This document shows, piece after piece, positions 1 to 11,354 of a DNA stretch of 11,354 nucleotides. Origin of the DNA: Verrucomicrobiota bacterium (GTDB lineage: Bacteria; Verrucomicrobiota; Verrucomicrobiia; Chthoniobacterales; UBA10450); the NCBI GenBank assembly GCA_003219995.1, contig QHRC01000022.1, positions 1 to 11,354 on the forward strand. Reading direction: 5' to 3'. Under the pieces are notes generated by a model that was not told where the DNA came from, ran no database searches, and saw nothing but the letters and a program-made list of their open reading frames with translations. The translations under genes were made by a program, and so were the position numbers. How positions within the stretch are numbered: the first letter of the stretch is position 1; each line of letters begins with the position of its first letter.

Positions 1-361
1 CCGCTTCGTGTTTTTCCTCGGCCGCTTCCATCCGGCGAATGGCGATGTCGGTCCCGAGCGCGCGATTGAACCAGCGCTTGAAACGGGTGCCGATTGTGTC
101 CGGCAGCTTCGGAATTGGTGCGCCGAGATCGGCAAGTTTCTTTGCCCAACGTTCCGCGTGGCGCTCCTCCGCTTCCGCCATGCGGCGCAAAATGCCTTTA
201 CGCCTTTCATCCACTTCGCGCGACGCCAGCTCGCGGTAGACCTGCGCCGTCTCGACCTCCGCCCGCCAATTGCGCTGCACGACTTCAATTGTCTCCTCCG
301 CTCGCGACGGCTGTCGGAGTTGTCGATCTTTGGATCCGCCTGATGACTTTTCTGTTGTCAT
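1..361 (-). CDS. Ferritin-like / VIT1-type membrane protein, N-terminal part (runs off left edge)
   Basis: Open frame from an ATG at 361-359 to the window edge, 120 residues and no stop. After a polar N-terminus of about 25 residues it is rich in charged helices. Diiron ligand-like positions are visible: Glu35 (in NWRAEVETA), Tyr42, an ExxH at 65-68 (EERH) and a second ExxH at 115-118 (EEKH). This pattern is typical of rubrerythrin/ferritin-like domains, and the surrounding sequence resembles proteins in which such a domain precedes a VIT1/CCC1 iron/manganese transporter (MbfA-like). The membrane half would lie beyond the window, so the transporter assignment is an inference. The ATG overlaps the TGA of the upstream EamA gene (ATGA), so translation is probably coupled. 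Likely role: iron or peroxide handling at the membrane. Confidence 0.72.
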   Translation of the reverse strand, partial: MTTEKSSGGSKDRQLRQPSRAEETIEVVQRNWRAEVETAQVYRELASREVDERRKGILRRMAEAEERHAERWAKKLADLGAPIPKLPDTIGTRFKRWFNRALGTDIAIRRMEAAEEKHEA

Positions 362-1311
362 TGGGCGCACTCCGCTCCGGCGACTTGTCCGGTAAGGACT
401 GGCTCCGTTCTGGATTTCATTTGCTGCCAGGTGATTACAACTGCCACCGACCCGATAATCAATCCCGCACCGATCCACGTCCGCAAAGTCAGACGTTCGC
501 CAGCAAAAAGGGTCCCGAGGAAAATGGCCACGATTGGATTGACGTAAGCATAGGTCGCGACTTTTGCCGGCTCGCAGTGACGGAGCAGATAAAAGTAAGC
601 GGTGTAACCAACGAGCGCTCCGATAAGCACGAGATAAACGAACGCGCCTAACGAGAGCCAGGTTACGTTGCGGATATCGAATTGGCGATATTCGCCCAAT
701 CCGAGTCCAGCGAGGATGAGCAACGCTCCGCCGCAAATCATTTGCTGACCCGCCGCGACAAACAGCGACGACGAGTGTTTAGCCTTGCGCGAATAGAGCG
801 AGCCGATCGACCAAAGTAACGACGCGACCACCAGGATCGACATGCCCCATGCCAGATGATTTCCGGTCGAACTTGTGAATGCCGGCCCAACCAAAATTCC
901 GACTCCGATAAAGCCGCCGATCAATCCGAGCCAGACGATCGACGTCGGCCGGGACGCCGTGCCGCTGAGCCAACCAAGCAGCGCGATGTAAATCGGAACT
1001 GTGGCGACGAGCAACGCGGCCAATCCGGTCGGGACCCATTTTTCGGATATGGTGACACCGCCGTTTCCGCCCAAAAGCAAACAAGCGCCGATAATCAGCG
1101 CCGTCCACCATGTCGATCTTTCCGGTTTCGGCGCGCCTTGCAATCGCGCGATCCCGTACATGATTGCACCCGCGGAAAAGAAACGCACGCCCGCCATCAA
1201 AAACGGCGGGATCGATTGAATGGCGAAAAGGATTCCGAGATAAGTCGAACCCCAGATCAAATAAACTGCGGCAAACGCAATGATGATCCAAATTCTCTTC
1301 GGCGCCGCCAT
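358..1311 (-). CDS. EamA/DMT-family transporter (YedA-like)
   Basis: 317 residues, the usual length for the drug/metabolite transporter superfamily, with about ten hydrophobic helices in two EamA repeats (about 10-140 and 155-295). Family signatures are the N-terminal YLIWGSTYLGI segment, RFFSAG near residue 43, and in the second half HCEPAKVATYAYVNPIVA followed by FAGERLT (about 245-275), the classic end of the second EamA repeat. The ATG at 1311 has a good Shine-Dalgarno (AAGG, 6 nt upstream). It should act in the inner membrane as an exporter of small metabolites; the substrate cannot be read from sequence. It is the first gene of an apparent two-gene unit and overlaps the downstream ferritin-like gene by 4 bases. 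Confidence 0.9.
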   Translation of the reverse strand: MAAPKRIWIIIAFAAVYLIWGSTYLGILFAIQSIPPFLMAGVRFFSAGAIMYGIARLQGAPKPERSTWWTALIIGACLLLGGNGGVTISEKWVPTGLAALLVATVPIYIALLGWLSGTASRPTSIVWLGLIGGFIGVGILVGPAFTSSTGNHLAWGMSILVVASLLWSIGSLYSRKAKHSSSLFVAAGQQMICGGALLILAGLGLGEYRQFDIRNVTWLSLGAFVYLVLIGALVGYTAYFYLLRHCEPAKVATYAYVNPIVAIFLGTLFAGERLTLRTWIGAGLIIGSVAVVITWQQMKSRTEPVLTGQVAGAECAQ

Positions 1312-1336
1312 CGCTCACCTTCCCGCATCGTGCGGG
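1312..1336 (-). promoter_or_regulatory. Shine-Dalgarno and adjacent 5' UTR hairpin of the EamA gene
   Basis: Read on the minus strand, AAGGTGA (1321-1315) is the ribosome binding site. Directly 5' of it is a perfect stem CCCGCA / TGCGGG with a 3-base loop (1322-1336). The hairpin abuts the ribosome binding site and could affect its access; its stem is seen directly, its role is inferred. Confidence 0.4.
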
Positions 1337-1649
1337 CAGAGCAAGCGACCGCGGCGTGTCAGGCCGCCTCCGACTTGACGCGCCCGATGTGCGGTTGGAA
1401 GCTTCTGCCAGTTCTTTGTTTCGCTTAATGGATCGGCCAGTTGTCGATCTTGCGGGGGAACCAATTTCTGTTCCGCGAACGCGGAAAAGATCGGGGCGAA
1501 CGATGCGCGGCATCGAGAGCATTTAATGGCTCCAGCCCGACAGCTAACCTCGTCGGCATCATTAAAGGGCAAGGAAGTCGTAGGGAACCGGCTCCAGTGA
1601 AAGTCAGGCGTCTCGTCGCGCGAGTGCTGCCTCGTTTTGAGTCGAAAAA
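1312..1649. other. Divergent intergenic region between the EamA and first permease genes
   Basis: About 338 bp separating two divergently transcribed genes, so both promoters should be here. I could not find a convincing -35/-10 pair with correct spacing on either strand. It contains one copy of TGTCGATCTT (1442-1451), the hairpin beside the EamA start, and a short open frame on the plus strand (1441-1653) whose TGA overlaps the permease TTG start. That frame has no recognisable domain and no ribosome binding site, so I do not call it a gene. Confidence 0.5.
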
Positions 1650-3485
1650 TTGATACCAACTAACGTTAAGCGTCCGCGCAACGTGGATGTGCCGCGCGCA
1701 GCCGCGATTCTTTACGGCGACTGGGGCACGAGCAAAGCCTACGTCATCGGTCTCGCCTTCGCCGTCGCCGGGTACGCCTCGTTCTGGCTCATCGCGCTCA
1801 TGTGCGTCCTTACCGCGCTCGTCGGCATCAACTACATGATCATCTGCCGTCTTTATCCGGACGGCGGCGGCGTCTACGCCAGCGTGCGACATCGCAGCGA
1901 AGTGATTTCGATCGTCGGTGCGTTCCTGCTCATCGCTGACTATTTGGTAACGGCGGCAATCAGCGCGCTGTCGGCGTTTCAATATCTCGGCGTTCCGCAT
2001 CCGGAAAAGTTCGCCGCCGCGGCCATCCTCATTATCGGATTGCTCAACCTGCTCGGACCAAAACACACCGGTGGCCTCGCCTTCTTGATTTCGGTGCCAA
2101 CCCTGATCGTCGTCGTCGTTCTCGGACTTTTCAGTCTGCCGCACATGGGCGAAGCGATCGGTCATCTGCAACCGTTGCATGGCGGGTTCTGGTCGAACTG
2201 GGCGGGATTTGTCGGAATCGTGCTTGCGCTTTCCGGTGTCGAAGCGATCGCCAACGCCACAGGTGTGATGCGCCTCGATCCCGGCAGCACCGATGCGCAA
2301 CCGTCGGTGCGTAAAACGTCCACGCCCGCAATTCTCTGGGTCATGATCGAAGTTTGCATTTTCACCGCGTTGCTCGGGCTCGCCATGCACGCGCTCGGCG
2401 GATTGCAGATCGCCCACGGCGATGTCAACGCGCCGCATGCCGAAGGCGTGCGCGACTACATGCTGCGTTACATGGGAGAAGTATTCGTCGGCGGCGCGCT
2501 CGGCCCGGTGATCGGTCACGCTTTCGGTATCGCCGTCAGCATCGTCTTCGCTCTGCTTCTCCTCTCCGCCGTCAACACTGCGATTGTCGATCTTATCACG
2601 ATCCAATTCCTTATGTCGCGCGATCGTGAGCTGCCAAACATTTTCCAACGACTGAACAAATGGGGCGTGCCGAGCGCGGGCATGATGCTCGCCACCATCG
2701 TCCCGATGTTGCTCGTGATTCTCGTTAAAGACATGGCCGGTCTCGCCGATCTTTACGCCGTCGGCGTCGTCGGCGCGATCGCCACCAATGTTGGCGCGAC
2801 CGCGACCGACCGGAAACTGCCGATCAAACCGTGGGAACGCACGCTCATGTTCGCGACGTTCGTCGTTATGTTCGCGATCGAAATGTCGTTGCTCATCGAC
2901 AAGCCGAACGCGCGTTATTTCGCCGTCACCATTCTCGCCGTCGGTTTGATCCTGCGCGGCCTTGTCCAGGAACGCCGCGCCAAGAAAGAGGCAATACCTT
3001 CGCCGCAGCTAATACCCGAAAAGTTACCTGTCGATCTTGCGCCGGCGCTCCCGAAAGAACCTCCGATTGCTGTTTCAGTGGGGGCCGAATCAATTCTCTG
3101 CGCTATCAGAGGAACAGGCCGCACCCTCGACTTTGCTTTGAAGGAAGCGCAAGAAACTGGCCGCCGCCTGTATCTGCTTTTCGTCCGCGAACAACCGTTC
3201 ATGACCGAACAGGACAGTAAACGCAAATGGCAGCAGGATGAAGAAGCGAGCGAAGTATTCCGCGTCGCCAAAGAAAAAGCGGGCGACCATCCACCATTGT
3301 TTGCGTATGCCGTCAGCCCGTCTGCCGCCGAAACAATTGTCGATGTCGCGGCCACCGTCGGCGCTTCGCGCCTCATCCTCGGCACACCAAAACGCAACGC
3401 GCTTATCAATCTTCTCCGCGGCAACGTAATTCGCGAAGTCTCCAACTCACTTCCGGAAGAGATCGATCTGCTTGTTTATGCCTGA
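1650..3485 (+). CDS. APC-family amino acid permease with C-terminal UspA-like domain (copy 1)
   Basis: 611 residues. Residues 18-440 form an APC-type permease of about 12 helices: LYGDWGTSKAYVIGL in the first segment, ALSGVEAIAN at about 193-202 (helix 6 region), and the conserved SRDRELP at 323-329 that matches the APC 'RDG-LP' loop. A linker (about 440-473) leads to a UspA-like domain (474-611) whose end has the nucleotide-loop pattern G578-T-P-K-R582 and RGN at 590-592. It should import or exchange an amino acid or polyamine, with the cytosolic USP tail regulating it; the substrate is unknown. The start is TTG at 1650: an in-frame TGA at 1638 excludes anything further upstream, and the next residues align with the paralogue at 6552-8450. 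The Shine-Dalgarno is weak (GAG). Confidence 0.88.
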   Translation: MIPTNVKRPRNVDVPRAAAILYGDWGTSKAYVIGLAFAVAGYASFWLIALMCVLTALVGINYMIICRLYPDGGGVYASVRHRSEVISIVGAFLLIADYLVTAAISALSAFQYLGVPHPEKFAAAAILIIGLLNLLGPKHTGGLAFLISVPTLIVVVVLGLFSLPHMGEAIGHLQPLHGGFWSNWAGFVGIVLALSGVEAIANATGVMRLDPGSTDAQPSVRKTSTPAILWVMIEVCIFTALLGLAMHALGGLQIAHGDVNAPHAEGVRDYMLRYMGEVFVGGALGPVIGHAFGIAVSIVFALLLLSAVNTAIVDLITIQFLMSRDRELPNIFQRLNKWGVPSAGMMLATIVPMLLVILVKDMAGLADLYAVGVVGAIATNVGATATDRKLPIKPWERTLMFATFVVMFAIEMSLLIDKPNARYFAVTILAVGLILRGLVQERRAKKEAIPSPQLIPEKLPVDLAPALPKEPPIAVSVGAESILCAIRGTGRTLDFALKEAQETGRRLYLLFVREQPFMTEQDSKRKWQQDEEASEVFRVAKEKAGDHPPLFAYAVSPSAAETIVDVAATVGASRLILGTPKRNALINLLRGNVIREVSNSLPEEIDLLVYA

Positions 3486-3489
3486 TCGA

Positions 3490-3518
3490 TTGACCAAGTC
3501 GCCGAACTGGTCTATAGA
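3490..3518 (+). promoter_or_regulatory. Candidate sigma70 promoter upstream of the 3D-domain gene
   Basis: TTGACC (3490-3495), a 17-base spacer and TATAGA (3513-3518) fit a sigma70 promoter, although the last -10 position is not T. It would give a leader of about 150 nt ahead of the gene at 3680. It starts only 5 bases after the permease stop. Confidence 0.3.
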
Positions 3519-3556
3519 AAGATCGGCTCGTCACACCGAGTCGCAGTCAGAAGTCC

Positions 3557-3580
3557 GCGCGCCCTTAAGGGCTAGCGCGC
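3557..3580 (+). terminator. Palindromic hairpin after the first permease gene
   Basis: A perfect 12-bp palindrome GCCCTTAAGGGC (3561-3572) lies between two GCGCGC blocks (3557-3562 and 3575-3580), so alternative stems can form. It lies 72 bp past the permease stop. No T-run follows, so it is a weak terminator candidate and could instead be an operator or REP-like site. Confidence 0.25.
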
Positions 3581-3679
3581 CGGGGCTGTTCCGAATCTGA
3601 AGTAGAAGACGTAGTTCTGCGGCTTTCGGAGTCGAGAATAGCGTGCTCCGCCCGAGACTCGACGACATCGGAGCAACTT

Positions 3680-4084
3680 TTGGAAGTCATGAAGTTATTT
3701 TGCGCAGTTATATTTTTATTGTCGTTGGCGTCGGCCGCTTTCGCGGCCGAGGAATCGGTCCTGGCGCGTGTCACCAGTTATTGGGCAGATGAGGGAGCTT
3801 CCGTTAAATATGCCAGTACGGGCCGACGATTGCGCGCCGGACATTGCGCAGTCGATCCAAAACGAATTCCGTACGGCAGTAAAATCGTCTTCCCCGATCG
3901 CGCCTGCACCGCGGTCGACACCGGGCCGGCGGTTATTAGTCGTAAAGCCGCTCGGCTATGCGCGCGGACTGCCAGCCAACTCAAGGCCATCGTGGTTGAT
4001 CGATTTTTTGAAACAAAACGAGAGGCGATGGCGTGGATGAATGCGAATCCCGAGTTCATGACACTTCAGGTTGTTTCGCCCTGA
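3680..4084 (+). CDS. Small secreted 3D-domain (RlpA-like barrel) protein
   Basis: 134 residues. The N-terminus is a signal peptide: Lys5, a hydrophobic core (6-19) and a cleavage site after AFA (20-22). The rest is a compact 3D domain: ARVTSYWADEG at the start, then AVDPKRIPYGSKIVF, AVDTGPAV and VVDRFFETKREAMAW, giving the three conserved aspartates that name the family. The fold is a double-psi beta barrel related to lytic transglycosylases (MltA, RlpA, Sps/YabE proteins), so a periplasmic cell-wall role is likely. No partner domain (LysM, G5, SPOR) is present. Start choice: TTG at 3680 has GGAG 6 nt upstream; the alternative ATG at 3689 has GGAAG only 2 nt upstream. Both leave the signal peptide intact. 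Confidence 0.82.
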   Translation: MEVMKLFCAVIFLLSLASAAFAAEESVLARVTSYWADEGASVKYASTGRRLRAGHCAVDPKRIPYGSKIVFPDRACTAVDTGPAVISRKAARLCARTASQLKAIVVDRFFETKREAMAWMNANPEFMTLQVVSP

Positions 4085-4097
4085 TTACATTCAGAGC

Positions 4098-4114
4098 CGA
4101 CCGAGCTACGGTCG
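4098..4114 (+). terminator. Weak hairpin after the 3D-domain gene
   Basis: CGACCG and CGGTCG form a 6-bp stem with a 5-base loop, 13 bp after the stop at 4084. The following bases are A/T-rich (ATTACAAAT) but not a T-run, so termination is only possible. Confidence 0.3.
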
Positions 4115-4160
4115 ATTACAAATAAAGATCGGATCCTTTCTATCAGCGCCGGAGGCATTT

Positions 4161-4223
4161 ATGACGGAAACCGCGCCGTCATCCTGGACAGGTACGAAAA
4201 AGGCTGTAAATAGATGGAGATGA
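4161..4223 (+). CDS. Possible 20-codon leader peptide ORF
   Basis: ATG at 4161 preceded by GGAGG at 4151-4155 with a 5-base spacer, the best Shine-Dalgarno in the window, and ended by TGA at 4221-4223. The peptide begins MTETAPSSWTG and is basic at the end. Its first codons lie in an inverted repeat (ATGACGG at 4161-4167, CCGTCAT at 4176-4182) that could hide the start codon. A second tiny frame starts at 4220 with an ATGA overlap and reaches TAA at 4276. There is no homology evidence; the ribosome site may be chance. Confidence 0.22.
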   Translation: MTETAPSSWTGTKKAVNRWR

Positions 4224-4227
4224 AAAC

Positions 4228-4289
4228 GATCAACGCGCCAATGTGCGCCGCCCGCCGCGGCGGGCAGGCTGCATAAAAGCCCGTTGATC
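4228..4289 (+). ncRNA. Structured element, possible small RNA or leader RNA
   Basis: An outer inverted repeat GATCAACG (4228-4235) / CGTTGATC (4282-4289) encloses the perfect 16-bp palindrome GCCCGCCGCGGCGGGC (4250-4265) and an alternative pairing CGGGC (4261-4265) with GCCCG (4279-4283). Nested and competing stems are typical of structured RNA. It matches no riboswitch consensus that I know. With the terminator at 4304-4354 it could be the body of a small RNA or the leader of the gene at 4406. Confidence 0.35.
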
Positions 4290-4303
4290 TCGCCAAGTTG
4301 GAG

Positions 4304-4354
4304 CCCGCTTTTCGCGGCACCCCAGTGGTCGAATCTTACCACGCGCGGGTTTTT
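4304..4354 (+). terminator. Rho-independent terminator-like hairpin (or attenuator)
   Basis: CCCGC (4304-4308) pairs with GCGGG (4345-4349), an inner stem is GTGGT (4325-4329) with ACCAC (4338-4342), and TTTTT follows directly (4350-4354). It points towards the gene at 4406, 51 bp away, so it either ends an upstream RNA or acts as an attenuator for that gene. Confidence 0.5.
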
Positions 4355-4405
4355 GCGCCGGTCGTCCGAACCGAATTCGGGAATAACTCTCAACAATTTT
4401 AATTT

Positions 4406-4684
4406 ATGAAACCAACACCTCAAATCAGTCAACACGTTCCCCGGGGTTTTCCCGTAACGGATTACAACTTTCAGCCGACTGTGGAAACGCCGACGAGCTC
4501 GTCTGCCACTCTTTCGGCAACGAAGCCGCCCGCTTTCCACAAATTAAGCAGCGAATTCTTCGGTGCAGAAACGAGCCGGGATTATATCGTCGAGCTTTCG
4601 TTCTTCATTCTGATCACCGGCCTCGCCGTCTGGCCGGTCGTGTCGATGCTCGCTTGCCTGGCGTGGATGAAAATTGTGTTCTAG
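4406..4684 (+). CDS. Small single-pass membrane protein, function unknown
   Basis: 92 residues. The first 50 or so are polar and rich in Pro, Ser and Thr, with no signal peptide. The segment from RDYIVELSFF to the C-terminus (about 58-92) is one hydrophobic helix containing AVWPVVSMLACLAW. The protein therefore looks tail-anchored, with the polar part in the cytosol. I recall small proteins of Verrucomicrobiota with a similar WP-containing C-terminal helix, but this is recall, not a search. No Shine-Dalgarno is visible before the ATG (the upstream bases are A/T-rich). The codon choice in the 3' half is GC-rich at third positions, which supports real coding. The upstream structured region and the terminator-like hairpin suggest control at RNA level. 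Confidence 0.65.
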   Translation: MKPTPQISQHVPRGFPVTDYNFQPTVETPTSSSATLSATKPPAFHKLSSEFFGAETSRDYIVELSFFILITGLAVWPVVSMLACLAWMKIVF

Positions 4685-4694
4685 GCAATTTCGA

Positions 4695-4746
4695 CTGTAG
4701 GGGACGACGCTGTCGTCCCGTGGGAAGCCAACGGCTTCCCCTACAG
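4695..4746. repeat. Cloverleaf palindromic repeat, copy A (52 bp)
   Basis: Terminal inverted repeats CTGTAGGGG (4695-4703) and CCCCTACAG (4738-4746) enclose two perfect hairpins: GGGACGAC / GTCGTCCC (4701-4719, 3-base loop) and GGGAAGCC / GGCTTCCC (4722-4740, 3-base loop), 2 bases apart. The same plan recurs at 8763-8819. It lies 10 bp after the stop of the small membrane protein. It resembles REP-like or non-autonomous palindromic elements. Confidence 0.75.
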
Positions 4747-4816
4747 GGGCTTGGGGTTATGGCGGTTTCCTAATTCCTGTTTTGCTGCTTTCCCGATTCG
4801 AAGCGTTTTAACGCAA

Positions 4817-4834
4817 GCCGCCGGGGACGGCGGC
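4817..4834 (-). terminator. Hairpin between convergent genes, candidate serA terminator
   Basis: GCCGCCG (4817-4823) and CGGCGGC (4828-4834) make a 7-bp GC stem with a 4-base loop, 10 bp past the serA stop. On the minus strand it is followed by TTGCGTTAAAACGC, only partly T-rich and itself able to form a small stem. It could serve both converging transcripts. Confidence 0.4.
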
Positions 4835-4843
4835 CGCTACAAC

Positions 4844-6436
4844 TCAAAGTTCAATGACTTGCGCGGAATGGATGTCCTCGCTGGCGCGAATTTTTTCGAG
4901 CAACTGCGCGTCCGGCGTGGAGTCGAGATTTAAAACGGTGAGCGCGGTACCGCCGGCTTGATTCCGGCTGAGCGACATGGTGGCGATGTTTACTCCATGA
5001 TTGCCCAGCATTGTACCGACGCGGCCGACCATTCCGGGGCGGTCCGTGTTTTCCAAAACCAAAAGGACGCCGTGCGGACGCGCTTCGACCGGGCGGCTGT
5101 TCACACTGACGATGCGCGGAGTCGCGCCAAAAAACGCGCCGCCGACGGAAACGGTTTTACCATCCGCGACGGCGGAAAGTTCAAGCAAGTCGGTGTAATC
5201 GCCTGCTGCGCTCAAGCGGGTTTCGGTGATTTTGAGTCCGAGAGTTTCAGCAAAGGCCGGCGCGTTGACCTCGTTCACTTCGCTCCCGCCGGCGCTTTGC
5301 AAAAATCCCTTCAGGACCGCGCGCGTGATCGTGGTCGTATCGACCTCGTTGACTTTGCCACTGTAATTAATGTTGAGCGTCTCGACTCGGCGCGGCGCGA
5401 TTTGCGAGAGAAATCTGCCGAGCTTTTCCCCGAAACGCAGATGCGGTCCAATGATCGACAATGTCTTGGCGTCCAGGTTTGGCATGTTGATGGCGTTGCG
5501 AATCGTTCCTTCGAGCAACGCCGCGCGGACCGATTGCGCGATTTCGATGCCGACACTCTCCTGCGCCTCAGCGGTGGACGCACCGAGATGAGGAGTGAGA
5601 ACAAGGTTCGGCGCCAGGCGCAGCGGCGAATCGTCCGGCAAAGGCTCGTGCTCGAAAACATCGAGCGCAGCGGCGGCAACATGTCGATCTTGCAAGGCGC
5701 GGGCGAGCGCAGCTTCGTCAACCAGTCCGCCACGTGCGCAATTGATGATGCGGACGCCGCGTTTTGTTTTTTGTAGCCGCGCGGGATCGACAATGTGATG
5801 CGTCTCGGCTGTTAAGGGCGTGTGGAGCGAGATGAAATCGGAATTTGTCAGCAAATCGTCCAGCTCATCGACCAGCTCGACCTGCAAACTGCGTGCCCGC
5901 GTTGCCGAGAGATACGGATCGTAGGCGAGCACGCGCATGCCGAAAGCAATTGCCCGCCGGCTCAGTTCGCTCCCGATCCGGCCCAGGCCGATGACGCCAA
6001 GGGTTTTGTTGTAAAGCTCGACGCCTTCGAAATTTTTGCGGTCCCAATTCTTCCCGCGCACGCTCGCGTCGGCCTGAGGAATTCGTCGCGCCACCGAAAG
6101 CAAAAGCGAAAAGGCATGTTCGGCGGTGGAAACGGTATTTCCACCGGGCGCGTTGAGCACGACAATCCCGCGGCGGGTCGCTGCCTCAACATCAACATTG
6201 TCTACACCGACGCCGGCGCGGCCGACAACGCGCAGTTTTGTTCCGGCATTCAAGATCTTCGAACTAACTTTCGTTTCGCTTCGAATGATGATCGCGCTGA
6301 ATTCCGGGATGAGGGCGACAAGTTCAGGTTCGGTTAAGGCGGTTTTTGTAGTGAGTTCGAGAGCGTTGTCACGCGCAAGCTCTTCGATGCCGCGCGGCGA
6401 GATGGCATCGGCAATGAGAACTCGCGGCGTGGTCAT
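4844..6436 (-). CDS. serA: D-3-phosphoglycerate dehydrogenase, long ACT-containing form
   Basis: 530 residues, the normal length of the long type of this enzyme, which oxidises 3-phosphoglycerate with NAD+ to 3-phosphohydroxypyruvate in the first step of serine synthesis. The N-terminal substrate region (1-95) includes VGRAGVGVDNVD; the NAD fold has GLGRIG at 150-155; catalytic residues are Arg235 (NCARGGLVDE), Glu264 (EHEP) and His283 (TPHLGAST). Residues of about 320-450 form the allosteric substrate-binding domain and 455-530 an ACT domain (RPGMVGRVG, then GVNIATM), the usual serine sensor. All key residues are present. The ATG at 6436 fits the family N-terminus; no Shine-Dalgarno precedes it. 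It lies 115 bp downstream of the second permease gene on the same strand. Confidence 0.96.
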   Translation of the reverse strand: MTTPRVLIADAISPRGIEELARDNALELTTKTALTEPELVALIPEFSAIIIRSETKVSSKILNAGTKLRVVGRAGVGVDNVDVEAATRRGIVVLNAPGGNTVSTAEHAFSLLLSVARRIPQADASVRGKNWDRKNFEGVELYNKTLGVIGLGRIGSELSRRAIAFGMRVLAYDPYLSATRARSLQVELVDELDDLLTNSDFISLHTPLTAETHHIVDPARLQKTKRGVRIINCARGGLVDEAALARALQDRHVAAAALDVFEHEPLPDDSPLRLAPNLVLTPHLGASTAEAQESVGIEIAQSVRAALLEGTIRNAINMPNLDAKTLSIIGPHLRFGEKLGRFLSQIAPRRVETLNINYSGKVNEVDTTTITRAVLKGFLQSAGGSEVNEVNAPAFAETLGLKITETRLSAAGDYTDLLELSAVADGKTVSVGGAFFGATPRIVSVNSRPVEARPHGVLLVLENTDRPGMVGRVGTMLGNHGVNIATMSLSRNQAGGTALTVLNLDSTPDAQLLEKIRASEDIHSAQVIEL

Positions 6437-6551
6437 AGCGGAAGTAAACGTTCAACAGCCTGCCCTGAGCGCAAGTCGAATGGGTTCAGCATCGGAACGT
6501 TCAATGTTCAATTCTGCGGCGGTCATACCGGGCCGTGCGCGGCTACAGGCC
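6437..6551 (-). promoter_or_regulatory. serA upstream region with short direct repeats
   Basis: Contains two copies of AACGTTCAA (6447-6455 and 6496-6504) and a related TGTTCAA (6505-6511). The second copy includes the palindrome GAACGTTC (6495-6502). Between them, 6463-6484 begins CCCTGAGCG and ends GTCGAATGGG, like a degenerate copy of the CCCTGAGC...GTCGAAGGG intergenic repeat that I know from several phyla. GGGCC (6530-6534) and GGCCC (6548-6552) form a loose stem at the permease stop, without a T-run. No clear promoter was found; operator function is inferred. Confidence 0.35.
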
Positions 6552-8450
6552 CTAACCGAAGATCAGCAATTGAATCGAATCTGGCAATTGTTGGGCAACA
6601 TTCGTGGCCACGCTGCCACGGAGGAGATTGGCAAGGGCGGTCCGTTGCGTCGCACCGATGACGAGAAAATCGATGCCCATGGTGGCGGAAAGATCGACAA
6701 TCGTCGCGGAGGCATCCTGGCTCACCGCATAAACCGGCACGACGCAGACATCACGGTCGGCTCCAAGTTTAAGCATGAGCGACATGATGGCGTTCGCCTC
6801 CGGGTCGTCCTGCCAACGTGCGCGACCGAGTCGGGCCGGACCGCCGGAATAATAAACGGCGACTTCTTTGACGTAAAGCACGCAGAGTGTCGCTTTGCGC
6901 AATTGCGCTTCGTCGAGAGCAAAACTGAGCACCGGCGTGATGCCGCGTGCCGCAACCATGATTTTTTGTCCTTCCTCCAGCCGCGGCTGCATCGTTGCGA
7001 CGAGATTGGGTGAAACCATCTCGGCAACTTGCCGGGTCACGGTGACCGTGGTGAGGCCCTGACGCTTCAGCGTGTAGGCACGCAGACCCAATCCGCCGAT
7101 CAATATGCATGTCACGAAGAAAAGCGCGTCCGGTTTTGTGTGAGCAAGCGTGAATTCCACGGCGAACAAAACGACGAACGTGATGCCGAACAGCAGGCGG
7201 TCGTACCAGGTGAAATCGATTGCCCTGTTGAATGAACAAGAACCAACGTTCACGGTGATCGCGCCGACTACTCCAATCGCGTAAAGGCCGGCGAGCGCAG
7301 TGAAATTCGCAGCGAAGAGCAGAACGATTGCGGGCAGCCCGATACCGATGAGGAGCGGATACATCGGAACACCGTGGCGATTGAGGCGCTTGAATTGGCG
7401 CGGCATCTCGCGATCGCGCGCCATCATGTAGAGCAATCCGATGATCGCCACGATGGCAGTGTTCGCGGCACTTAAAAGGAGCAGGAAAAAAACAATGCCG
7501 ATGATCCAGCCGAATACGACACCAACGCCCGGGGAGAATGTTGCGGTAGCGAATTGCTCACCGATAAAACGCAACATGTCTTCATTGCGTTTCTCCAAAA
7601 CAGAGGCGATCTCCGCGCGGCCAACAAGGTGGAGCGTTTTGCTTAGTACCGCCGGCAGTGAAAGCATCGCCCAGCCAAGCAAGGCGGTGCCGAAGACAAC
7701 TTCAATCGCGACCGGCGTTATCGCCTTCAGGGATGTGCGCGCGACGCGCGGCTGATCCATCGACGAGTCGGGATCCAGTTTCATCACACCGGTGAGATTG
7801 GCGATCGCTTCGACGCCGGAGAGCGCGAGAATGACTCCGACGAATTGGACCCAGAGCATTCCCAAGCTTTCGTGCCGCGGCTCCAGAAAACGCGTCGTCA
7901 AGTGCGGCACGCTGATCGCGATCAGCGCGATTACCACGACGACAGTTGGTAAGGCCAGTGCCACTGCGAGACTGCCCGAATGTTTTGGGCCGAAGTAATT
8001 GATCAACCCCATGATCAAGAGCACGGCGATCGTCGTCAGGGCAATGTGATCGCGTAGGAATTTGATCCAGATCACTTCCTCCGCGCCGGAAGTGATGTAG
8101 GTCAATGCCGACCAGCCGCTCAGTGCTGCGGTCACGGTCAGATCGGCTAGGAGAAGGAGAGCGCCAACCACGGCAAGCAATCGGCCCTGCGAACGCGCGG
8201 CCGAGTAAACACCGCCCCCATCGGGAAAGTGGCGGCAGATGACCACGTAATTGATTCCGACCAGCCCGGTCAGCGCGCAGACGGCAAGGATGATCGGGAA
8301 CGAGGAGAAACCGGCGGCAAGGAAAGCCAGACCGATGACATAGGCTTTGCTCGTGCCCCAATCACCATAGAGGAGCGCGGCCGCGCGCCTCCAATCAACA
8401 TTGCGCGGGCGATGCACCGCCCCGGTCTCCGTGATAATTAAATCAGCCAT
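6552..8450 (-). CDS. APC-family amino acid permease with C-terminal UspA-like domain (copy 2)
   Basis: 632 residues, a paralogue of the protein at 1650-3485. The first helices are nearly the same (RPRNVD, then LYGDWGTSKAYVIGLAF; by eye about 60% identity over the first 100 residues), followed by SGVEAIANLTGVM at 211 and ARDREMP at 344-350, both APC landmarks. About 12 helices span 22-460. The UspA-like domain (491-632) ends with G599-A-T-Q-R603 and RGS at 611-613. Compared with copy 1, the loop of about 268-305 and the linker (462-490) have diverged. ATG start at 8450, preceded only by AAAAAG. Transport specificity is unknown. It lies 76 bp after the methyltransferase gene and 115 bp before serA. 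Confidence 0.9.
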   Translation of the reverse strand: MADLIITETGAVHRPRNVDWRRAAALLYGDWGTSKAYVIGLAFLAAGFSSFPIILAVCALTGLVGINYVVICRHFPDGGGVYSAARSQGRLLAVVGALLLLADLTVTAALSGWSALTYITSGAEEVIWIKFLRDHIALTTIAVLLIMGLINYFGPKHSGSLAVALALPTVVVVIALIAISVPHLTTRFLEPRHESLGMLWVQFVGVILALSGVEAIANLTGVMKLDPDSSMDQPRVARTSLKAITPVAIEVVFGTALLGWAMLSLPAVLSKTLHLVGRAEIASVLEKRNEDMLRFIGEQFATATFSPGVGVVFGWIIGIVFFLLLLSAANTAIVAIIGLLYMMARDREMPRQFKRLNRHGVPMYPLLIGIGLPAIVLLFAANFTALAGLYAIGVVGAITVNVGSCSFNRAIDFTWYDRLLFGITFVVLFAVEFTLAHTKPDALFFVTCILIGGLGLRAYTLKRQGLTTVTVTRQVAEMVSPNLVATMQPRLEEGQKIMVAARGITPVLSFALDEAQLRKATLCVLYVKEVAVYYSGGPARLGRARWQDDPEANAIMSLMLKLGADRDVCVVPVYAVSQDASATIVDLSATMGIDFLVIGATQRTALANLLRGSVATNVAQQLPDSIQLLIFG

Positions 8451-8526
8451 CTTTTTGCCGTGTGACTGTTCATTATCCGCTTGTTTCCTGGCAAGTTCTT
8501 TGTGTGGGATATTGCCCGTGTATGTC

Positions 8527-9611
8527 TCATCGGCACGACGCCGATACTACTACTTCGATCTCGGCGGTTTGCGGGAACATGTCGAGTGGCGTTACCGATT
8601 CGATTTTAAATTTGTCACCTAACTCTTTCAGATCGCGTGCGAGCGTGGCGGGATTGCAAGAAACATAGATGAGCGTGGCCGGCGCAAGATCGACAATCGC
8701 TTCTCGAAGGTTTGCGCTGAGACCGGCGGCCGGAGGATCGACAATCAGGGTGATCTTCTCACAGGTAGGGGCGATTGACCCGAATCGCCCGCGGGCGGTT
8801 CGGTGAACCGCCCCTACCTCAATCTCGACGTCTCCGGCGATGTATGTTTCTTTGGTGGTTGCATTCTCTCGCGCCGCTTCGATTGCGAATTTGTCCCAAT
8901 CAATCCCGATAATTCGTTGGAACTTTTCGAGCAACTTCTTCGCGAAAAAGCCGGCGCCGCAATAGGCATCCACGAGCAATTCCTGGCCGGACGGAACGAG
9001 TCGCGCGATCAAATCGCGCAAGGCATCGGCGACAGCGTCGTTCGTTTGGGTAAAAACGCGGGAACCAGATTTCGCGCGCAAAGTGTAATGGCCGTCGCGA
9101 ACCGGAGTGGCGCGCAAATCCGCGAGCGCGCGATTCACTTCGGCCATCGCGATCGGGCAATGTTCGATGTCGATCAAGCGATGCGATTCGCGGCGGAAAA
9201 ACCCAACCACGCCATCCCGGGCATGAACGGTGATGCGATTGCGATAACGATACGAAGACGGCGAGGGAATGATTGGCCGCATCGGCACATCGGCGAGTTT
9301 TCCGATGCGACGCAAGACATCGTGAACCTGACGGAACTTAAGCGCCAGCTGATGCTCGTAATCGATGTGCTGGTAACTGCATCCACCGCAGCGGCCGAAG
9401 TACGGGCACGGCGACCGGACCCGATGCGGTGAGACTTCGATAAGATCGACAAGCTCGGCCTCGGCGAATTGTTTTTTTTCCCGAACGCGATTTTCGCCGA
9501 CACGCGTTCGCCATTGATCGTGAACGGGATGAAAACAGCTTTGCCGTTGTCTCGCCCGACGCCTTTTCCGCCAAAAGCGACATCTTTGATTTTTAGATCA
9601 ACCGTGCGCAA
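8527..9611 (-). CDS. rlmD: RlmD-type 23S rRNA (uracil-C5) methyltransferase, frameshifted at an A8 run
   Basis: TrmA/RlmD family, SAM-dependent m5U methylation of 23S rRNA. It reads in two frames joined at 9472-9479; the numbering below assumes a -1 shift there, giving 361 residues. A TRAM domain (about 4-58, DVAFGGKGVGR) is followed by four iron-sulfur cysteines: C69, C75, C78 and C152. Then FTQTN (187-191), the SAM motif DAYCGAGFF (215-223), DPPAAGL (292-298, where the family usually has DPPRKG) and the catalytic Cys319 in YVSCNPATLARDL. Residues 266-283 are encoded by an inserted palindromic repeat. The likely start is TTG at 9611; an in-frame TTG at 9710 would overlap the kinase gene. No ribosome site is seen at either. 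The family is certain, the exact target uracil is not. Confidence 0.85.
8763..8819. repeat. Cloverleaf palindromic repeat, copy B (57 bp), inside the methyltransferase gene
   Basis: Terminal inverted repeats AGGTAGGGG (8763-8771) and CCCCTACCT (8811-8819) enclose hairpins GGGCGATT / AATCGCCC (8769-8790, 6-base loop) and GGGCGGTTC / GAACCGCCC (8793-8813, 3-base loop), 2 bases apart as in copy A. Its 57 bases are exactly 19 codons, so the host frame is kept. The encoded residues 266-283 (VGAVHRTARGRFGSIAPT) fall between the SAM region and DPPAAG, where relatives have a variable loop. Confidence 0.75.
9472..9479 (-). other. A8 homopolymer at the methyltransferase frame break
   Basis: On the minus strand the upstream frame reads GGG AAA AAA AAC. 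A -1 slip on the lysine codons, or one extra A in the mRNA, gives GGG AAA AAA AAA CAA TTC and continues directly into the downstream frame (KKKQFAEAELVDL). So one base in this run explains the whole break. Confidence 0.8.
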
Positions 9612-9651
9612 AATGAGAAAGCCGGTGCGGTGAATCGTGGAACGCGCGATT

Positions 9652-11354
9652 TTAATTCGAAACAGATCCCGCTCCGACCGCCCGCTCCATCGCGGCTTGG
9701 AGGTTTTCAAGCTTCACCGGCTTAACCAAATGCTCGGAAAAGCCCGCCTGCAGACTTTTTTCGATATCGCCATTGTTGCCGAAACCACTGATGGCAATTC
9801 CCGGGATGCCGCATATGGCATGCAGCTGCATCATCAAATCCATGCCGGTGCCGTCTGGCAGCGCGATATCGCTAATGAGAAGATCGAATTGATTGCGGAC
9901 GGCGGCTTCCATGGCCGAGCGCACGTTATGCGCGGCCGCTACGAGATGACCACGCCGAACGAGCAATCTCTCCAGAGCGGTGCAGGTGTCCCGGTGGTCG
10001 TCGACCAATAAAATGCGAAGAGTTCGCGTCTCGATCGGCACGGTCGCACGTTTAGCTGGCTGCTGTTGCGCCGGAACGGTTTTCATCGTTAAAAGAAATG
10101 CCGCCCCGCGATCGCGCCCTTCACTTCGTGCGAGAAGCGTGGCCCCGTGGGCTTGGGCGAGCGATTTGGAAATCGCCAATCCAAGACCAAGTCCCCCAAA
10201 ACGCCGCTGGAATGAGACTTCGCCTTGCTCGAACGGATCAAAAATCCGTTCCATGATGTCGGGTTCGACGCCGATTCCGGTGTCGCGCACGGTGATGACG
10301 ATGGTCTGCGGCGCCGGGTTTGAGGAGGAGATGGTAATTTCGCCGTCCTCGCTGGTGAACTTGATCGCGTTTTTCAATAAGTTCCAAATGATTTGCTGAA
10401 ACTTCGCTGTGTCCGCTGAGACATGATGCGCGCCGGCCCGCAAGTCGGGATAGACATGGAGGTTTTTGGCATTCGCTTCCGCCCGACAGATTTCGATTAC
10501 GTTCAAGACGGCCTCGTGCGCATCGATTGAATCGAATTTCAATTCCAATTTGCCTTTGGCGATGCGCGTGAGATCGAGCAGATCGGCGATGAGCTGGCTT
10601 TCCAACTCGACATTGCGTCGGATCATCGCGAGCGAAGCTTTTGACTCTTCCGATTGCGCCGCGTCCGTCTCCAGCGTGTCCAACGCAGCAATGACTGGCG
10701 TGAGGGGTGTGCGCAATTCGTGCGAAAGCATGGCGAGAAACTTGTCTTTTGTCCGGTTGGCAGTTTCAACCGCGGCCTTCTGCTGCTCGATCGCTGCTTC
10801 GGCACGGCGTCGCTCGGCCATGGCAGCGGCCAGCGCCATTGCCGTGATGGTGAGCACGGCGGTCCAGGCTTGGAGCGTCAGAAGCGAATGGTTCTCAGTT
10901 TCCATAATGAACGGTCCGAAGCCATGCAGCGTCCCCCAAATCGCCAGGGCTGAGAGAATAAAAATTCCAGTCGCCGTTTCGCGCTGCGAAAATCGGAAGG
11001 CAGTCCATATCACGACCGGCCCGCAAATGAATGAAATGGGGTAATTCCTGGCCGAAATTGGAAACCATCCGCCAAAGACCGTTTCCCCGAGAACAAATAG
11101 CAAGAGCAGAAGGATGCCGACTTCGCCGGCGTCTCTGCGACTCCAACGCTGCGTCGAAGGGATGCTCCAGAGAAGAATCAGCGGAGCGACCACCAGATCC
11201 CCAGCGCTGTCGCCCAGCCACCAGGTCGTCCAGATTGGGCCGTAGTTTGCCCAAGCAGCGAAACCGCCGAGCGCGAGAGTGGTCACGCCAATGGATGGGC
11301 TGACTAGAGCGCTCAGCATCGCGGCGAGTGCGAATTTAAAAACGTCTTGCGCGC
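9652..11354 (-). CDS. MASE1 hybrid histidine kinase with receiver domain (5' end beyond window)
   Basis: The frame stays open to the right edge: upstream of the first in-window ATG (11319) it reads AQDVFKFALAA, continuous with a MASE1 membrane sensor, so that ATG is internal. Numbering from it: MASE1 helices to about 165, with WWLGDSAGDLVVAPL at 33-47; a coiled coil 166-190; HisKA with His200 in SHELRTP; HATPase with N-box N313 and N317, DTGIG at 346-350 and GLGLG at 376-380; then a receiver domain (434-550) with Asp440/Asp441, phospho-acceptor Asp484, Ser511 and Lys533. All catalytic residues are present. It should sense an unknown membrane or redox signal and pass phosphate internally; no separate regulator or output gene is in the window. 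It ends 40 bp before the methyltransferase start. Confidence 0.93.
   Translation of the reverse strand, partial: AQDVFKFALAAMLSALVSPSIGVTTLALGGFAAWANYGPIWTTWWLGDSAGDLVVAPLILLWSIPSTQRWSRRDAGEVGILLLLLFVLGETVFGGWFPISARNYPISFICGPVVIWTAFRFSQRETATGIFILSALAIWGTLHGFGPFIMETENHSLLTLQAWTAVLTITAMALAAAMAERRRAEAAIEQQKAAVETANRTKDKFLAMLSHELRTPLTPVIAALDTLETDAAQSEESKASLAMIRRNVELESQLIADLLDLTRIAKGKLELKFDSIDAHEAVLNVIEICRAEANAKNLHVYPDLRAGAHHVSADTAKFQQIIWNLLKNAIKFTSEDGEITISSSNPAPQTIVITVRDTGIGVEPDIMERIFDPFEQGEVSFQRRFGGLGLGLAISKSLAQAHGATLLARSEGRDRGAAFLLTMKTVPAQQQPAKRATVPIETRTLRILLVDDHRDTCTALERLLVRRGHLVAAAHNVRSAMEAAVRNQFDLLISDIALPDGTGMDLMMQLHAICGIPGIAISGFGNNGDIEKSLQAGFSEHLVKPVKLENLQAAMERAVGAGSVSN

Follow-up and report, generated by a model that had tools for sequence, protein, structure and literature searches.

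A scattered ten-letter word of one Chthoniobacterales family as a candidate DNA uptake sequence

What kind of process would write the same ten letters nine times into little more than eleven kilobases of a bacterial genome? The question is raised by contig QHRC01000022.1 of assembly GCA_003219995.1 (Verrucomicrobiota, Chthoniobacterales), of which a stretch of 11,354 nt, hereafter the window, was analysed. The assembly of its own genome (G000) holds 2,097,096 bases and is 77% complete, and the main genomes compared with it are drafts. The word, TGTCGATCTT (reverse complement AAGATCGACA), is a non-palindromic 10-mer and the most frequent 10-mer of the window. Counting both strands, we found the nine exact copies that a sequence-only reading of the window had reported, together with three one-mismatch copies; these 12 matches with at most one mismatch compare with 0.96 in shuffled sequences, and 12 or more were reached in 0 of 200 shuffles. 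Five exact copies lie in sense and encode Val-Asp-Leu, and gene placement and translation leave, as that reading had it, four others: three antisense within genes and one intergenic. We consider, with moderate confidence, that TGTCGATCTT is a self-recognition word of one family of Chthoniobacterales and that it plays, by analogy, a role similar to that of the DNA uptake sequences in Neisseria and Haemophilus. The observations behind this proposal are a genome-wide excess, restriction to the family among the genomes sampled, conservation of sites, an abundance of variants that differ by one letter, symmetry between the strands at the local scale and a scarcity of the word in one island that looks mobile.

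Across the assembly of G000, TGTCGATCTT occurs 996 times (499 forward and 497 reverse), against 0 occurrences of the word read backwards. Allowing up to one mismatch raises the number of matches to 2013, of which 1017 are near-misses, against 45 for the backwards word. An excess of near-misses is named in passages of PMC1939737 as a prediction of uptake-driven accumulation, and the 1017 near-misses against 45 therefore fit such accumulation. A sample of 129.7 kb of G000 that includes the window contains 75 copies, where Markov models of orders 1–4 expect 0.39, 0.56, 0.99 and 1.51; an order-5 model, which already holds six-letter pieces of the word, expects 6.7, these expected counts being model-dependent. 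TGTCGATCTT was also the top 10-mer against an order-4 model both in this sequence and in 160 kb of G013, the richest relative (genus g11, 2.9 Mb). The over-representation claimed for the window thus extends to the whole genome. Within the G000 stretches, the middle letters C-G-A of the word show almost no variants and some are tolerated at its ends, while A or T stands directly before it in 92% of 74 copies. The flanks of 886 copies in G013, taken after removing copies with a second one nearby, are rich in A upstream, where G stands at -5 and A or T at -1, and read G-C-G downstream. A repeat element was ruled out, given that the flank preferences are weak and that copies lie in several frames inside genes.

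The word is also kept at the same sites. Over the 28 kb of G000 that align to G013 (77% identity; 70–83% in the longest matches), the exact word stood at 21 of 25 sites, our main figure, compared with 3105 of 27,969 other 10-mers (11.1%; binomial P about 7e-17) and with 507 of 4107 10-mers of the same G+C. The 30 bases on either side were 75.1% identical, against 77.3% elsewhere; conservation is not raised in the flanks, so it is the word itself that is kept and not its neighbourhood. In the opposite direction, 21 of 39 G013 sites were exact in G000, which has fewer copies. Among the window sites that could be followed in single genomes, the exact word was present at seven of eight in G013, three of four in G010, three of six in G015 and six of nine in G003, and at none of five in each of the word-poor G008 and G012; three of the misses, all at the first site (in G003, G015 and G022), reflect a shifted alignment next to an existing copy of the word. 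When six genomes of word-poor genera were pooled, they kept none of the 16 G000 sites and none of the 70 G013 sites, against 5.5% and 6.0% of other 10-mers, which would correspond to about 1 and 4 word sites. Since the word-poor genera keep no sites, protein coding fails to explain the conservation: the word is kept as DNA in word-rich genomes and not in word-poor ones. The proposal of the sequence-only reading that selection acts on DNA is strongly supported by the genome-wide excess, the near-misses and this site conservation. Whatever its function, a word found unchanged at 21 of 25 sites in two genera whose aligned DNA is about 77% identical needs a dedicated reader.

For the layout of the word we used 420 kb of G013 lying on one contig (C4), with a custom open reading frame (ORF) caller that assigned 92% of it to coding sequence. 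The 701 copies comprise 559 in called genes (298 sense, 261 antisense), 25 partially in genes and 117 intergenic. Leaving partial sites out, 117 of 676 are intergenic, against about 8% of the sequence (P about 6e-16); this enrichment is an upper estimate because the caller overlooks some genes, and two window copies (321 and 9442) lay in overlooked frames. All six frames are used by the coding sites, one of them only once, and the commonest are Val-Asp-Leu (203 of 559) and Lys-Ile-Asp (142). The rank of Val-Asp-Leu is what an origin from codon usage, from either of these peptides or from chance has in its favour. Against it, copies in other frames, antisense and between genes are numerous, none of 86 sites is kept in the aligned genera poor in the word, and the backwards control gives 0. 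Frequencies far above the Markov expectation and copies beyond Val-Asp-Leu codons, together with the frame spread and the word-poor orthologues, refute such a by-product, whose probability we regard as negligible.

The strands of the copies bear on a second explanation, that of a polar chromosome word of the KOPS or Chi type guiding a translocase or recombinase. The sequence-only reading had noticed that plus-strand copies lie on the left of the window and minus-strand copies on the right, and this pattern is real within the window but fails beyond it. Neighbouring copies share a strand at chance level, in 341 of 700 cases in the 420 kb of G013 and in 43 of 75 in the G000 stretches, and 353 of the 701 copies on the G013 stretch are forward. 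KOPS and Chi resemble TGTCGATCTT in being short over-represented words; they are strand-biased, however, and by local strand runs, which were judged without a mapped origin or terminus, TGTCGATCTT is not. We therefore regard a polar function as very improbable.

Copies less than 150 bp apart are fewer in G013 than chance would give, except for 41 tandem pairs. These are direct pairs whose starts lie 15 or 16 bp apart, found on contig C4 both in and between genes; among neighbours within 60 bp, 47 are direct and 16 inverted. The G000 stretches contain one direct pair of the 15–16 bp type (L037). In a contig scan for direct pairs, among the matches listed (80 titled loci), unrelated bacteria also matched, with 2 or 3 words each. 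The excess of direct pairs, along with the modest intergenic enrichment, would suit a binding site for a global regulator, or for a nucleoid protein present in abundance, possibly bound as dimers at this spacing. The placement of 559 of 701 copies within called genes, in both orientations, argues against such a site, as does identity over ten letters every 0.6–2 kb, which is unusual for proteins of this kind, and we hold this explanation to be improbable.

The excess of the word is confined, among the sampled genomes, to one family of Chthoniobacterales, for which 83 genomes were counted. All four genomes of the own genus are word-rich (996 copies in G000; 1419, 1509 and 1179 in the others), and G013 carries 4653 copies, about 1.6% of its genome. 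Further word-bearing genera of the family are g8 (1070 copies), g12 (715), g13 (760), g14 (147–1016) and g5 (74–755), and word-poor ones are g4 (22–85) and g2, g3, g6, g7, g9 and g10 (9–69). The 255 genomes sampled outside the family (237 across the phylum and 21 of the same order, three being in both sets) reached a maximum of 57 copies, in a 6.4-Mb genome. Among the matches listed, other records rich in the word over 4–8 kb were the Verrucomicrobia isolates AV19 and AV17, Spartobacteria UBA10877 and Chthoniobacterales COA_Bin_6_3. In a SerA tree, eight word-rich genomes form one clade (support 87/85, one state change, 86% of bootstrap trees), which suggests a single gain of the word; the tree is of one gene with moderate support and holds only genomes with a usable SerA, the word-rich G002, G010, G016 and G019 being absent. 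We relied on it because the APC permease tree mixed two paralogues; there the word-poor G024 fell among word-rich genomes and three changes were needed. Ranking k-mers in 31–40 kb from each of nine genomes of other families of the order revealed no comparable scattered word. In this ranking, overlapping words reached about 10–20 copies in 40 kb of G041 (L234–L235) and of G053 (L243–L244); they resemble clustered repeats of greater length, perhaps CRISPR.

The scarcity of the word in gained DNA was looked at in one mobile-looking island. The sole long word-free gap in the 420 kb of G013 measures 13,034 bp (L060:1697-14720), where mean spacing is 598 bp and the second-largest interval 3276 bp; a gap of this length has a chance of about 2e-7 over 700 intervals. 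It encodes a phage-type integrase among other genes (Table 1), and the genes to its left gave weak terminase and tape-measure matches.

This island also bears on a further explanation, in which TGTCGATCTT would resemble HIP1 of cyanobacteria as a word maintained inside the cell through DNA binding, methylation or repair and not by uptake. HIP1, with the letters GCGATCGC, has a very high density, is spread through genes and is confined to a clade; TGTCGATCTT shares these traits, with one copy per about 600 bp in G013 and a wide spread within genes. It further speaks for such a process that no receptor can be named for TGTCGATCTT and that competence genes fail to track the word. On the other side, direct pairs at 15–16 bp and scarcity in an integrase island are not known as traits of HIP1. 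HIP1 is, moreover, an octameric palindrome according to the title of a work cited in PMC1939737, and TGTCGATCTT is not palindromic. Overall, a HIP1-like role seems to us rather unlikely. Among the candidate functions put forward in the sequence-only reading, an uptake word thus fits best, whereas KOPS and Chi fall with the lack of strand polarity and HIP1 with the lack of a palindrome.

Were TGTCGATCTT an uptake word, a pilus or cell-surface protein would prefer DNA that bears it, so that such DNA would be brought in, and recombination with this DNA would re-create the word and protect it at the same sites. The word would act together with its preferred flanks, A or T before it and G-C-G after it, and its reader would probably belong to the competence pilus. 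Published uptake sequences are likewise described in PMC1939737 as non-palindromic, without orientation bias around the chromosome and commoner in non-coding DNA than expected. The DNA uptake sequence (DUS) of Neisseriaceae, a 10–12-mer read by the minor pilin ComP, resembles TGTCGATCTT, a 10-mer with semi-conserved flanks, in several ways: about a thousand or more copies on both strands, amounting to the order of one percent of the genome, conservation in shared genes, and different words, or dialects, in related genera. It differs in that the sequence and phylum are unrelated, that no member of the ComP_DUS family exceeded the cut-off, and that direct pairs of TGTCGATCTT at 15–16 bp exceed close inverted pairs. 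The uptake signal sequence (USS) of Pasteurellaceae, with its 9-mer core, is similar in having a conserved core, weak A-rich flanks, one-off variants in excess and no strand bias, and again differs in sequence and phylum.

We searched for the machinery in 58 genomes, 37 of the family and 21 of other families. ComEC was found in 53, PilT-family ATPases in 56 (52 over the cut-off) and DprA in 53 (52 over the cut-off); G013 has all three, and G000 has ComEC and PilT. The sequence-only reading had suggested looking for com and pil genes; ComEC, PilT and DprA do occur in the family, but equally in word-poor genomes, so their presence does not discriminate. In a motif scan of the PilT loci L297–L299 and the ComEC locus L042, the single pilin-like match was rejected as spurious. 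Family searches on proteins of L298 and L299, run on part of the genes there, named no pilin.

Several findings count against uptake, and we set them out together. The competence genes are weak evidence, because ComEC, PilT and DprA are equally common in word-poor relatives and the ComEC and DprA profiles also match 10 of 14 control genomes. DprA of G000 consists of two separate pieces only, both under the family cut-off (G000:C88:5878-6533), and the drafts of the word-rich G003 and G034 gave no ComEC match and that of G010 no DprA match. ComP_DUS (PF16732) exceeded its cut-off in none of the 58 genomes; weak matches to it occurred in eight genomes, word-rich and word-poor alike, and seven of the nine loci concerned hold, as judged by eye, one similar pilin, which in G013 is nearest to GspG and under the GspG cut-off. 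GspH/FimT (PF12019) was detected in five of the 58 genomes, none of them in the family of the word (E <= 0.001). As for layout, G013 has few of the close inverted pairs that Neisseria shows (the 16 within 60 bp), and overall spacing is no more even than chance, with a coefficient of variation of 1.15 that is raised by the 13-kb gap and the close pairs. Conservation is lower in some comparisons, with four of seven window sites exact in G001, one of five in G002, one of six in G007 and two of five in G022, and with 6 of 21 sites exact from G013 to G015. Finally, beside the gap, the words at 59,256 and 61,687 stand alone between those at 55,980 and 74,721, and the tape-measure-like gene carries the one at 61,687 at its 5' end. 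A second word of the family, TCGTTAGGC, has 4 copies inside the gap, against about 9 expected, so that the gap is far less depleted in TCGTTAGGC than in TGTCGATCTT. Words in phage-like genes by the gap and TCGTTAGGC within it slightly lowered our confidence in uptake.

Given that the ComP_DUS and GspH/FimT searches named no receptor, our claim is that TGTCGATCTT works like a DUS, not that it is a DUS of the Neisseria type. The receptor predicted in Pasteurellaceae is, according to passages of PMC12616744, another minor pilin, PpdA/ComN, and a receptor other than a ComP-type pilin would then be no surprise here. We found no report of TGTCGATCTT or of uptake words in Verrucomicrobiota in the open-licence PubMed Central literature, in agreement with the sequence-only reading, which knew of no described motif with this sequence. 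In 2013, PMC3630211 called the need for short uptake sequences unique to Neisseria and Pasteurellaceae. If our proposal is true, TGTCGATCTT would add a third case, unrelated to the other two and from a distant phylum, so that self-recognition in DNA uptake would have arisen more than once; there would be a new receptor to find, and hardly cultured bacteria would appear to exchange DNA within their family by natural transformation.

The second word, TCGTTAGGC, was raised by k-mer ranking in G012, G013 and G004, and weakly in G005 (for example L046–L049, L224–L227). Its counts are 4605 in G027, 2754 in G021, 2183 in G033, 2147 in G004, 1980 in G012 and 1802 in G013; these rich genomes belong to genera g2, g10 and g11. 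The other 31 family members searched have 58–587 copies, the lowest being near background because the 9-mer read backwards gives 37–106 within the family, and 21 genomes outside the family have at most 30. TCGTTAGGC is abundant mainly where TGTCGATCTT is scarce, with the exception of G013, which has both (4653 copies of TGTCGATCTT and 1802 of TCGTTAGGC). Few of its sites are kept: one of three from G012 to G013, one of seven from G013 to G012, 0 of 9 from G013 to G004, G005 and G009 together, 0 of 3 from G012 to G000 and 1 of 27 from G013 to G000, which is poor in TCGTTAGGC. Such low conservation, in few comparisons, may indicate a younger word, or something else. It is conceivable, at a little under even chances, that the family evolved a code of uptake words independently of Neisseria and Haemophilus, with at least two words (TGTCGATCTT and TCGTTAGGC) swapping between genera, a receptor of another type and G013 as a bilingual member. 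In G008 (genus g6; L212–L215) we observed a weak excess of words containing CTCGTTAG, possibly a variant of TCGTTAGGC, and in 45 kb of G024 (genus g4; L208–L211) no word of the CTCGTTAG type.

The copies in the window, the genes around them and the contents of the gap are collected in Table 1. The window genes comprise a ferritin-like frame, an EamA transporter, two APC permeases with Usp domains, serA, a uracil-5-methyltransferase-like gene and a hybrid histidine kinase.

Table 1. Copies of the word in the window, with relatives that carry the exact word at the same place, and the contents of the word-free gap of G013
Feature	Position	Strand	Context	Exact word at the same place
Word copy 1	321..330	+	Antisense, start of putative ferritin-like frame (about 2-361, minus; ..KDRQ.. 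on minus)	G001, G002; present but alignment-shifted in G003, G015, G022
Word copy 2	1111..1120	+	Antisense in EamA-family transporter gene (358-1311, minus)	G003, G013
Word copy 3	1442..1451	+	Between EamA gene and first APC permease gene	G003, G013
Word copy 4	2585..2594	+	Sense, Val-Asp-Leu, APC permease + Usp gene (1650-3485)	G001, G013
Word copy 5	3029..3038	+	Sense, Val-Asp-Leu, APC permease + Usp gene (1650-3485)	G003, G013
Word copy 6	5682..5691	+	Antisense in serA (4844-6436, minus)	G001, G003, G010, G013, G015, G022
Word copy 7	6690..6699	-	Sense, Val-Asp-Leu, second APC permease + Usp gene (6552-8450, minus)	G003, G007, G010, G013
Word copy 8	8686..8695	-	Sense, Val-Asp-Leu, uracil-5-methyltransferase-like gene (8527-9315 and upstream, minus)	G010, G013, G015
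Word copy 9	9442..9451	-	Sense, Val-Asp-Leu, 5' part of uracil-5-methyltransferase-like frame	G001, G003, G015, G022
One-mismatch copy TGTCGATCCT	833..842	-		G001, G002, G003, G007, G013, G022
One-mismatch copy TGTCGATCAT	5451..5460	-		
One-mismatch copy TGTCGATCCT	8734..8743	-		
Gap contents	G013 C4:61697-74720		Phage-type integrase; ABC-3C C-terminal-domain protein; DUF2326 protein close to PADLOC's PDC-M68B; weak replication-protein match	

Two features of the window genes were noted in passing. The uracil-5-methyltransferase-like gene (8527-9710, minus) is seemingly split by a frame change, which is either an assembly error or real: its N-terminal part lies in the frame of the ORF at 9174-9710, and the remainder, with a Cys-rich motif, in a frame that stays open from 8527 at least as far as 9555. 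The two APC permease genes with C-terminal Usp domains are related to each other and lie on opposite strands, about 3 kb apart.

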